Assembly (NCBI GenBank): GCA_900545875.1
Contig: URAQ01000035.1
Span: forward strand, 1-10,779
Origin: an uncultured Collinsella sp.
GTDB lineage: Bacteria; Actinomycetota; Coriobacteriia; Coriobacteriales; Coriobacteriaceae
Direction: 5' to 3'
Length of the DNA stretch: 10,779 nucleotides
Of the stretch, positions 5,148 to 7,833 are shown one piece after another. The notes beneath the pieces were generated by a model. That model was not told the origin of the DNA and ran no database searches. It saw only the letters and a list, made by a program, of their open reading frames with translations. Each line of letters begins with the position of its first letter. The first letter of the stretch is position 1. The translations under genes and the position numbers were made by a program.

Positions 5148-5177
5148 ATTATCCACGCTCGTTCTCCGGTCGGGAGA
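5148..5177 (+). repeat. Dispersed repeat, right copy
   Basis: Begins ATTATCCACGCTCGTTCTCC and matches 1095-1124 at 25 of 30 sites in the same orientation. The end forms a TCTCC-GGTC-GGGAGA mini-hairpin. Differences between copies include T/C and A/G changes, consistent with an old duplication or a dispersed family. Confidence 0.7.
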
Positions 5178-5213: not shown

Positions 5214-5247
5214 GCAGGACATCCAGGTCCGCACCCGCCCTTGTCTC

Positions 5248-5294
5248 GATCTGTAACAGCAAGAGGCCTATTCCGCTTCTACATGTTACAGATC
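5248..5294. repeat. 47-bp inverted-repeat element, copy 1
   Basis: Perfect 11-bp arms GATCTGTAACA (5248-5258) and TGTTACAGATC (5284-5294). An inner stem AAGAGG/CCGCTT (5261-5266 with 5273-5278, one mismatch) has a 6-nt loop. It shares arms and exact length with 5328-5374. No T-run follows. Confidence 0.75.
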
Positions 5295-5327
5295 AGGATA
5301 TTCCTAAAACACCCTAAGTTTCATCTC

Positions 5328-5374
5328 AATCTGTAACAGTTAGATGCCAAATATCGGTCTTGGTGTTACAGATT
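5328..5374. repeat. 47-bp inverted-repeat element, copy 2
   Basis: Perfect 11-bp arms AATCTGTAACA (5328-5338) and TGTTACAGATT (5364-5374). The outermost pair is A-T here and G-C in copy 1, a compensatory change. The interior differs in sequence from copy 1 but again offers a short inner stem (AGA..CC with GG.TCT). The copies start 80 bp apart. Confidence 0.75.
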
Positions 5375-5488: not shown

Positions 5489-5563
5489 TGGAGCCAGTGA
5501 CAGGAATCGAACCTGCAACCCACTGATTACAAATCAGTTGCGCTACCGTTGCGCCACACTGGC
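5489..5563 (-). tRNA. tRNA-Thr (TGT anticodon)
   Basis: A 75-nt minus-strand cloverleaf including an encoded CCA (5491-5489). The acceptor GCCAGTG pairs perfectly with CACTGGC and the discriminator is U. The anticodon stem CTGAT/ATCAG carries loop TTTGTAA, giving anticodon TGT, which reads ACA and ACG. It is a solitary transcription unit with its own promoter and terminator. Confidence 0.96.
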
Positions 5564-5593
5564 ACACTTGGCGCTTTCACGCGAAGCGAGTTA

Positions 5594-5622
5594 AGAATAA
5601 AGGAATTGCGGACGGGGCGCAA
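5594..5622 (-). promoter_or_regulatory. Probable promoter of tRNA-Thr(TGT)
   Basis: Minus-strand TTGCGC (5622-5617), a 17-nt spacer and TATTCT (5599-5594). The predicted start near 5587 gives a leader of about 24 nt before the tRNA 5' end at 5563. Confidence 0.5.
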
Positions 5623-5710
5623 CAGGCCGCACGGCGTTATACAAATATGCAAAATCCAGCAACAACGCGTACCAGGCCCGTTCATTTCTGTCAGTGCGCC
5701 CTCAATCTTA

Positions 5711-5783
5711 AAACCATTCGCCAGAACGAATAGTTTTAATTACAATTGCTATATATAAAACTATTCGTTCTGGCGAAGGGTTT
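5711..5783. promoter_or_regulatory. 28-bp-arm inverted repeat overlapping the control region of the kinase gene
   Basis: Positions 5711-5738 pair with 5756-5783 with a single A/G mismatch (5716/5778), leaving a perfect 22-bp core and a 17-nt A+T-rich spacer that contains TATATA sequences. Each arm itself contains TTCG-N6-CGAA. The right arm includes the GAAGGG ribosome site (5775-5780) of the downstream ATG at 5788. It is well placed to be the operator of the HTH-kinase protein. If transcribed from upstream, it would also form an RNA hairpin hiding the Shine-Dalgarno. Function is inferred; the structure is direct. Confidence 0.8.
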
Positions 5784-5787
5784 CGCG

Positions 5788-7128
5788 ATGCTTACTACCA
5801 AAGAAGCCGCCGAGCTGCTCGGCATCACTCCGCGCAGGGTGCAGGAGCTCATAAAAAACGGAGCACTTGAGGCCCGCAAGGCTTCTGGTGTATGGCTCAT
5901 CGACAAAGACAGCGTCGACACGCGACTCCGCTCTGTGACCAAAACGGGGGGACGTCCCCGCCGCGGCCACGGTAAGAGCGAGATCGCGTTCACCCTCATG
6001 AACCGCACGTACGAAGTCGCTCAGCTGGTCTACAGTACATCGCGAAAAGACTTTACCCACATCGGTGCCGACATCGATTACGCCCACGCCCCTATTGGAG
6101 TATTTGGCCCTAATAGCCCCATATCGCTAGACTCCTTCCGCATCTGGTGGCGCGGCCGCGGTATCCCGCTCGCACGCATTGGGCTAGCCTCCCTGCTTGC
6201 AGAAGCCGCAGTCGATGTTCCCGATGAACTCGTCCAGCGAAATCTCGGCCTCTCCTTATCCGACCAGTATTGGATTAGGCCCCAAGGTTCCGGTCTCACC
6301 TGGGAGGATATCAACTTCTTCAATAACGCCTTTGATGACGTCTCGCTGTCCATTGCACCCTTTGCCCCAGAGGGAAAAGCGGCTGCCGCAAAGCCCGATA
6401 ACACCTCGGACGGCAATCTTCAAAAGTACTGGACGTGCGAGGGCGAACGTCGAATTCTGCATAAGGCAGGAGCGCACCTGGACCAGGAACCTTATAACGA
6501 GCTGGTGGCGACCGCGCTCCACCGTCGCATCCTAAACGCCTGCGATTATGTGCCTTACTCGCTCGAGGGCACGGGCACTTCCGCCCTGAGCACATGCGAT
6601 GTCTTCTTAACTGATGAAGAAGAGTATGTCCCTGCGTTCTATGTAAACCAGCACGCAAACGCAGATGAACGGCTAACCGACTACGAGCGATATGTAGCAA
6701 ACTGCGAGGAGCTCGGGGTGACAGGCGTCAAGGATGCCCTTGACCGCATGATTGTATGCGACGACATCATCGCCAACTATGACCGCCATTGGCGTAACTT
6801 TGGCCTTGTGCGAAACGTCAACACGCAAGCCTGCAGACCTGCCCCCATCTTCGATTCGGGCTCATCACTCTGGTGCAACATATCGCTAGAGGAGCTTAGG
6901 GCGGGAGAGCACAGTTTTACCAGCGCACAATTTCATTCAAGTCCCGCCAAACAAATGTTGCTCGTCGAGGACATGGGCTGGTTTGACGGCGACAAACTCG
7001 AGGGCTTTGTCGACGAGGCGATCGAGATTCTGTCTAAAAACGATGCCCTAGCAGCGAGACTGCCTTATCTAAAAGAGGCGCTAATGTGGCGCCTCGAAAG
7101 AATCATCGACATCGCTGAATGGAGTTAG
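5788..7128 (+). CDS. HTH (excisionase/MerR-like) fused to HipA-like protein kinase
   Basis: 446 aa from the ATG at 5788, which has GAAGGG 7 nt upstream; an earlier in-frame start at 5746 lies inside the palindrome spacer and is disfavoured. Residues 1-49 (MLTTKEAAELLGITPRRVQE onward to WLIDKDSV) are a typical HTH_17-type DNA-binding domain. A basic linker (GGRPRRGHGK) follows. Then comes a region like the N-lobe of HipA-related kinases (MNRTYEVAQLVYS; LSLSDQYWIRP; LTWEDINFFNN). Candidate catalytic features are Lys226 (ILHKAG), Glu238 (EPYNE), catalytic Asp332 with Asn337 (DRHWRNFG) and Asp356 (APIFDSG, the DFG equivalent). It is intact and apparently monocistronic, with no separate antitoxin gene beside it. 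Kinase fold and DNA binding are supported by motif; the target and the toxin-antitoxin role are unknown. It ends 27 nt before the convergent rae1. Confidence 0.8.
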   Translation: MLTTKEAAELLGITPRRVQELIKNGALEARKASGVWLIDKDSVDTRLRSVTKTGGRPRRGHGKSEIAFTLMNRTYEVAQLVYSTSRKDFTHIGADIDYAHAPIGVFGPNSPISLDSFRIWWRGRGIPLARIGLASLLAEAAVDVPDELVQRNLGLSLSDQYWIRPQGSGLTWEDINFFNNAFDDVSLSIAPFAPEGKAAAAKPDNTSDGNLQKYWTCEGERRILHKAGAHLDQEPYNELVATALHRRILNACDYVPYSLEGTGTSALSTCDVFLTDEEEYVPAFYVNQHANADERLTDYERYVANCEELGVTGVKDALDRMIVCDDIIANYDRHWRNFGLVRNVNTQACRPAPIFDSGSSLWCNISLEELRAGEHSFTSAQFHSSPAKQMLLVEDMGWFDGDKLEGFVDEAIEILSKNDALAARLPYLKEALMWRLERIIDIAEWS

Positions 7129-7155: not shown

Positions 7156-7833
7156 CTACCGCCCGCGCAGGGCCTTAAGCTTTGCCAGGGCCTCGGGGCT
7201 CAGGCGGCTGCCCAGGGTCATCTTGATCTGGGGTGCTTCCTCGGCCTCATGCACGTCGTTATCGATCTGTTTGATCTCGTCCACCAGCATACGGCTCGAG
7301 ATGCGTGTAACGCCCTTGCCCATGACGACAGCCTGGATCGTGCCGTCGCTCGATACCACGGAGCACGCGCGGCCTTCCTCGCGCGCCTCGATGCAGAGCT
7401 TCTGCACCACGGTATCGGCCGAAACACCCGTCGGCGAAAACTCAATGCGCACGCCGCGGGCCGGTAGGTTGGGGCGCTCGCTGGAGATATTGCCCGCGCC
7501 ATCAAATACGATCACGGCCTCGTAGCGGCCCTGGGCAAAGGCGGCGACGTCGTTGATGAGAGCGGTGCGCGCCATATCGTGAACGTCGCTGGAATACGGA
7601 TCGTCGGAATGGTCGTAGACGAGCTTTTCGTAACGCGGCGTGCAGTGAATCACGTTGTAGCCGTCGACAACCAGCAGCTCGGGCTTGTTGGAGTGCACCG
7701 TCGAGACTGGGTCGGCGATAGCCTGTGCAAACGCATTGCCGCCCACGCCGTAGGTCGCGGCCGAAACAATCGGCTTGGCCGAGCCCTCGCCAAAGCGCTT
7801 AGCCTTGGACTTGGCACGGTTCTTTTTGGACAT
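7156..7833 (-). CDS. rae1: NYN-domain ribonuclease, Rae1/YacP family
   Basis: 225 aa. The NYN/PIN-like core runs from about residue 50 to 215, with LLVVDGYNVIH (first acidic site), AVIVFDGAG, the GVSADTVVQKL helix and CSVVSSDGTIQ, the same order as in Bacillus subtilis YacP (Rae1), a ribosome-associated endoribonuclease that cleaves mRNA at the A site. About 50 N-terminal residues (Lys/Arg-rich start, then a low-complexity stretch) are extra relative to the 170-aa Bacillus protein. The ATG at 7833 follows the rlmB stop by 3 nt, and a GGGGGAGGAG ribosome site is embedded in the rlmB 3' end, so the two are translationally linked. The rlmB neighbour supports orthology. Confidence 0.88.
   Translation of the reverse strand: MSKKNRAKSKAKRFGEGSAKPIVSAATYGVGGNAFAQAIADPVSTVHSNKPELLVVDGYNVIHCTPRYEKLVYDHSDDPYSSDVHDMARTALINDVAAFAQGRYEAVIVFDGAGNISSERPNLPARGVRIEFSPTGVSADTVVQKLCIEAREEGRACSVVSSDGTIQAVVMGKGVTRISSRMLVDEIKQIDNDVHEAEEAPQIKMTLGSRLSPEALAKLKALRGR

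Follow-up and report, generated by a model that had tools for sequence, protein, structure and literature searches.

In this study, we describe an inverted repeat that lies just ahead of a kinase gene in a 10,779-nucleotide stretch of Collinsella DNA (the whole stretch analyzed, hereafter the window). The kinase has a HipA-type fold and carries an HTH_17 domain fused to its N-terminus. We favour an interpretation of the repeat as a pair of 22-bp dyad operators, O1 and O2, set around a candidate promoter and a Shine-Dalgarno site. This pair would probably serve the autoregulation of the gene by the fused HTH_17. Comparison of upstream sequences among relatives brings out the two dyads, a recurring spacing between them, a common half-site, a link to the presence of the HTH, and a co-variation of the sites with the HTH.

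The repeat (5711-5783) consists of two arms of 28 nt each, at 5711-5738 and 5756-5783, separated by a 17-nt spacer, and 27 of the 28 positions (96%) are paired. Its significance was measured on locus L001, which is of the window's own type and has a leader identical to that of the window. None of 300 dinucleotide shuffles of a 116-nt stretch of L001 (110 nt upstream and 6 nt coding) matched the inverted-repeat score (p = 0.003, the smallest value possible), which confirms the near-perfect 28-bp inverted repeat reported in the first-pass annotation. The TTCG-N6-CGAA palindrome that had been noticed in each arm is present, nested inside AAACYATTCG-N6-CGAATAGTTT, and is part of a larger, near-perfect dyad of 22-26 bp. 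O1 extends to 26 bp (5711-5736) once its outer pairs are added. The centre-to-centre distance between O1 and O2 is 47 bp. Features are summarized in Table 1.

Table 1. Features of the kinase gene and of its leader, in window coordinates.
Feature	Position	Strand	Basis or remark
Operator O1 (putative), 22-bp dyad ACCATTCG-N6-CGAATAGT	5713..5734, centre 5723.5	.	Present in 14 orthologous Collinsella loci
Candidate -10, TACAAT	5741..5746	+	Consensus scan, 1 match vs 0.5 expected; kept in 9/9 distinct Collinsella repeats
Operator O2 (putative), 22-bp dyad ACTATTCG-N6-CGAAGGGT	5760..5781, centre 5770.5	.	Sequence
Shine-Dalgarno-like AAGGG within O2	5776..5780	+	Sequence; 7 nt ahead of ATG 5788
446-aa HTH_17-HipA-fold kinase gene	5788..7128	+	No second same-strand gene adjoining
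HTH_17 domain, residues 1-48	5788..5931	+	Pfam PF12728, 43.2 bits (cut-off 27)
Gly55-Arg56-Pro57, linker	5950..5958	+	Invariant in 53 aligned homologues; in wider set common, with exceptions (L051, L090)
HipA-fold kinase, residues 66-446	5983..7125	+	Fold matches; K226, D332, N337, D356 invariant in the same 53 homologues

Either of two elements could act as the -10 of the promoter: TACAAT, or TATATA/TATAAA at 5750-5759, the latter being more variable among Collinsella repeats. The Shine-Dalgarno-like bases sit in the right half of O2, in agreement with the ribosome site previously placed in the right arm. That the right half-site of this arm has GG for TA would be explained by bases common to the ribosome site and the operator. 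The repeat had also been said to cover the start region of the gene. This holds for the leader, but not for the coding part if translation begins at ATG 5788, as the repeat ends 4 nt, and O2 6 nt, ahead of it. The list of open reading frames includes an in-frame upstream TTG start at 5746, giving 460 aa, which would place O2 within the gene. We took ATG 5788 as the start because both the family alignment and AAGGG point there.

The neighbours of the kinase gene are a tRNA-Thr gene and an open reading frame at 7156-7833, both on the minus strand, so that no separate hipB antitoxin gene adjoins it; the HTH is instead fused to the kinase. This HTH also matches the TIGR01764 'excise' profile (33 bits, cut-off 28.8), and is in this sense of the HTH_17/excisionase type. 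In the structure alignment, which used 53 homologues (at least 53% identity) among the 120 proteins listed of 895 found, HTH residues R17 and L21 are invariant, but not in more distant relatives such as L086. We take the Gly-Arg-Pro of the linker to resemble the core of an AT-hook, with a putative function to match. The HipA fold, including its N-terminal subdomain, was recovered, and structures bearing the names HipA or HipBA rank among its best matches. Assignment to the HipA type rests on this fold, as the Pfam HipA_C profile scores 21 bits, under its gathering cut-off of 30.5; several homologues carry PF07804 in precomputed annotation. From HipA motifs, we assume for D332, N337, D356 and K226 the roles of the catalytic Asp/Asn and Mg-binding Asp set. 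The PADLOC profile PDC-M03A, for candidate phage defence, matches residues 206-370 only (best E = 4.4e-15), and such a match to the kinase core does not by itself demonstrate a defence role. A scan of viral contigs yielded one weak match, over residues 2-41, hence no phage link was found. Given its HipA fold, the product may be harmful to the cell.

A first homologue search returned 21 loci, including 14 Collinsella orthologues at 94-99% identity. The repeat is present in all 14 of these orthologous loci, under 9 distinct forms. Variable columns were concentrated in the central N6 (6 of 12), compared to 4 of 40 in the half-sites (Fisher p = 0.006). We then searched 43 Collinsella genomes for AAACTATTCG-N6-CGAATAGTTT, allowing up to 3 mismatches, and found matches in 23 of them. 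All 14 gene-bearing genomes had both sites at the locus and none elsewhere, 7 gene-less genomes had one site at the same place, and G017 and G031 had one 3-mismatch site each, elsewhere. With a reversed control pattern, one genome was matched. A looser pattern, run on three genomes, added a 1-mismatch site in G002 and 3-mismatch sites in G001 and G002. The 1-mismatch site (L024; G002 contig 33, 48997-49019) is a single O1-like site within a 541-aa open reading frame distant from the kinase, and may be a second target or a chance occurrence. Scatter of the palindrome over unrelated loci, which would have spoken against an operator, is therefore not what we see: apart from this one related site in G002, it stays with the gene in 14 of 14 genomes, and a scattered or mobile repeat was rejected, no copies being found elsewhere within 3 mismatches in these genomes.

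In the 7 gene-less Collinsella genomes, O1 and a partial, decayed O2 are retained between tRNA-Thr and the next gene (L129, L130, L131, L134, L142-L145, L147 and L150; 30 of the 42 neighbour-gene loci were taken in). A piece of tRNA-Thr follows the retained sites, 29 bp at 97% in G004 and weaker, 13-26 bp long, in five others; none was reported in G006. We read these remnants as gene loss that left the operator behind, though they may instead be an integration scar. Because O1 and part of O2 are kept there without the kinase, presence of a site does not prove its use.

Other features were observed around the locus. The segment 1027-5436 (a regulator, a beta-glucosidase and a PTS gene, by reading) is absent from two of seven Collinsella loci that we compared, namely L001 and L002, and direct repeats (1095-1124 and 5148-5177, 83% alike) lie near its edges. 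Two copies of ATCTGTAACA-N25-TGTTACAGAT are found at 5244-5293 and 5324-5373. In three Collinsella genomes, we counted 28, 21 and 35 occurrences of the pattern ATCTGTAACA-N(15-40)-TGTTACAGAT, frequently clustered and repeating about every 80 bp; on the evidence of sequence, it is a dispersed palindromic repeat family. Finally, Collinsella has a second HTH-kinase paralogue (L044-L050, L058 and L059; 38-39% identity), with a different repeat, of CGTTTAGTATT / CTTAACG type, adjoining the ribosome site.

We extended the comparison to the class Coriobacteriia, where 88 of 396 genomes have a homologue at E<=1e-50. From this search, 16 new loci and then 40 more were fetched, and the lower-scoring remainder was left out, apart from some HTH-less loci. 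Start codons were picked by rule. After removal of four duplicates, 84 upstream regions remained. Grouping them at a likeness of 0.8 gave 62 representatives, of which 46 were HTH-bearing (L020 among them) and 16 HTH-less, as judged by alignment start. An inverted repeat at p<=0.01 was found for 25 of the 46 HTH-bearing representatives, compared to 1 of the 16 HTH-less ones. With corrected starts (18 HTH-less loci minus one duplicate, L076 and L078 with unclear N-termini taken out and three new loci brought in), the HTH-less count becomes 1 of 17 (Fisher 4e-4 against 25 of 46), the one repeat lying at -104 to -74. A lack of any palindrome in homologues had been named as grounds for giving up the operator reading, and these 25 upstream regions show the opposite.

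Among the HTH-less homologues, solo kinases of about 400 aa that start near YxLMNKxxPVL were noted (L108, L112-L114, L116, L123, L126 and L128). None of these 8 has a significant inverted repeat near its start, except L108, at -104 to -74. Upstream of those that were read by eye, no HTH gene was seen either. An antitoxin gene upstream of HTH-less homologues was also sought by eye among the open reading frames around 10 fetched loci, and none was seen.

We next asked how the dyads are spaced. Briefly, the paired test looks for palindromic, mutually alike 22-mers, chosen for symmetry and self-likeness alone. With 115 nt of upstream sequence and distances of 30-65, 16 of 45 loci were significant (p<=0.01), all 16 at 44-48 bp. 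Widening the test to 160 nt and to distances of 30-70 made 17 of these first 45 loci significant, 16 of them at 44-48 bp. Ten loci from a later search, which had no role in this first look, gave 6 significant pairs, 4 of them at 44-48 bp, including L173, whose O1 and first 40 residues are the same as in L093. In total, 23 of 55 HTH-bearing upstream regions had a significant pair and 32 had none. The distance was 44-48 bp in 20 of the 23, and 32, 36 and 33 bp in L068, L167 and L174, respectively. Finding 20 of 23 in 5 of 41 possible distances has a binomial probability of 6e-16, a value that overstates the case since the loci are related and the counts not independent. Of the HTH-less controls (28 of 29 loci submitted, a set that did not include L103, which has a stop), one was significant, at 65 bp, so that pairs at 44-48 bp amount to 20 of 55 HTH-bearing against 0 of 28 HTH-less regions (Fisher 8e-5). 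The window's own type, L001, gave p = 0.01 with 115 nt and 0.025 with 160 nt, and is not among the 20. The paralogue group mentioned above has its other inverted repeat around the promoter, outside the twin-dyad plan, and was counted among the misses. L176, with an unclear start, was not significant when tried and was left out of the final count. L020 was excluded from the paired tests for its in-frame stops; by eye, a pair of palindromic 22-mers can be made out in it at a distance of 49 bp, and no HTH can be read downstream of the pair. In the order to which its genome (titled Clostridiales) belongs, 34 of 294 genomes were matched, and in 36 of 37 alignments the match begins no earlier than residue 61, so that the HTH part is not covered.

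The 20 loci with pairs at 44-48 bp fall into 10 operator clusters and share a half-site. An alignment that uses only the dyad centre shows T at position 5 of all 80 half-sites (and of all 40 when a single locus stands for each cluster), A at position 1 in 86% and A or C at position 4 in 92%; the inner positions differ from cluster to cluster. In the best pairs found elsewhere, T at position 5 was counted in 52 of 128 half-sites of the 32 non-significant loci, and in 10 of 12 for the three loci with other spacings. Among 44 loci (L083 being excluded here as well as L020), likeness between operators followed likeness between HTHs (residues 12-43) once the kinase was allowed for (partial r = 0.35, reached in 0 of 2000 permutations), with a smaller share for kinase likeness (partial r = 0.22). 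Together, the half-site and this correlation suggest that it is the fused HTH that binds. The suggestion that the promoter is surrounded by two dimer sites for the gene's own HTH is thus supported by conservation, by the spacing and half-site recurring in relatives, and by the contrast with HTH-less loci.

How might such an operator pair work? The N-terminal HTH_17 would bind each 22-bp dyad as a dimer, with O1 overlying the upstream portion of the promoter; O2 would lie across the transcript start, at its presumed position, and the ribosome site. A distance of 47 bp (about 4.5 turns) would place the sites on opposite faces of straight DNA, an arrangement that would suit a bend or a protein bridge, and the two dimers probably touch through their HipA-fold parts. 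This contact would keep the promoter closed, and transcription of the gene would thus be set by how much kinase is present. A bolder version, which we hold to be doubtful, is a HipBA made of one protein: the kinase would be its own repressor and its own antitoxin, inactive as long as two dimers sandwich across the 47-bp twin operator, and release from DNA would both open the promoter and free the kinase. If true, a spacing that recurs while operator sequences change would be a mark left by this protein-protein contact.

Alternatively, a transcript starting upstream could fold the 28-bp repeat into an RNA hairpin that hides the ribosome site, either as the sole mechanism or as an additional layer of control, the latter as the first-pass annotation had proposed. 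We consider this unlikely. The full repeat does fold at -38.8 kcal/mol, against a shuffle mean of -13.0 (z = -9.3), but trial transcripts beginning in the spacer or at 5764 fold no better than shuffles (43 and 59 of 200 being as good). When the arms of the 9 distinct repeats are counted as a helix, 93.7% of cells pair, and the 3 cells, in 2 pairs, that changed on both sides would suit a hairpin. Covarying bases, an expectation set beforehand for the palindrome of related genes, were nevertheless at the level of shuffles in these 9 repeats (98 to 172 of 500 being as high, and 103 of 500 reaching the both-sided cells). It is also the N6 columns, in mid-arm, that vary most: arm-to-arm mismatches occur there in 5 of the 9 repeats, 3 with only a single G-U wobble, which a hairpin would accommodate, and 2 with two unpaired positions, which speak against it. 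These nine sequences lean towards half-sites being held while the arms show no clear sign of selection for pairing. Moreover, L014 keeps its two dyads though its arms no longer pair (L021 looks similar, by eye only), and an Rfam scan at gathering scores reported only tRNAs. The hairpin layer over the Shine-Dalgarno thus gained no positive support.

The dyads might also be recombination or integrase sites rather than operators, since the HTH_17 is of excisionase type, with its 'excise' match, and the locus lies beside tRNA-Thr; the O1 and partial O2 left with a tRNA-Thr piece in gene-less genomes would fit as well. This seems very unlikely to us: inspection by eye of the window's open reading frames showed no integrase gene, and relatives have paired sites of other sequence ahead of the same kinase type, with kinase residues intact. 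As for a REP-like dispersed repeat, or a terminator, that happens to precede the gene, dispersed palindromic repeats do occur in three Collinsella genomes, as described above, but the O1/O2 pattern is confined to this locus in the 14 gene-bearing genomes, and a consensus scan of 5560-5860 placed no terminator-like site inside the repeat, which leaves this explanation with hardly any likelihood. Autoregulation through an operator pair is the reading that we retain.

Multi-site autoregulation of HipA-type kinases is already known. As described in PMC3376134, E. coli HipBA binds cooperatively to several dyad operators of about 21 bp, TATCC-N8-GGATA, and autoregulates. The present system resembles it by its HipA-fold kinase and several dyads, whereas HipB is a separate protein there and the HTH and kinase form one polypeptide here; the sites of the O1O2 oligonucleotide in that source start 28 bp apart, as measured, compared to 44-48 bp here. 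In L. pneumophila HipBST, according to PMC10653801, HipB is a distinct protein that binds three 18-nt operators with 53-bp gaps, upstream of a three-gene operon. A HipA-type kinase locus preceded by several operators at regular intervals is thus a shared trait, but here there are two 22-bp dyads and a fused HTH. A similar architecture is that of E. coli HipH (YjjJ), presented in PMC8262856 as a monocistronic HipA-type kinase whose N-terminal HTH was suggested to be a cis-acting antitoxin. Our kinase is likewise monocistronic with an N-terminally fused HTH; HipH has an extension of about 100 aa with the HTH at 15-34, compared to HTH_17 at 1-48 and the Gly-Arg-Pro linker here. The terms 'operator', 'HTH' and 'DNA-binding' do not appear in the main text of PMC9948734. 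The H. pylori kinase CtkA (PDB 3akj/3akk; 275-325 residues) aligned over kinase part 201-446 only, with no HTH counterpart in the alignment. What sets the present system apart from HipBA and HipBST is its fused HTH_17, its 22-bp half-site pattern and its pairing at 44-48 bp, and no title or abstract describing an HTH_17-HipA kinase with such operators was found in the open-licence literature.

HipA-type kinases underlie antibiotic persistence in E. coli, under the control of the separate HipB. In gut Coriobacteriia, a family of such kinases appears to carry its own, putative, operator-binding domain. Its operators seem to follow a readable code, in which every half-site has T at position 5, the variable inner bases track the HTH, and sites are paired at 44-48 bp. 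With its ready-made candidate binding sites and its natural HTH-less controls, this family may allow one to ask whether a fused HTH can replace an antitoxin.
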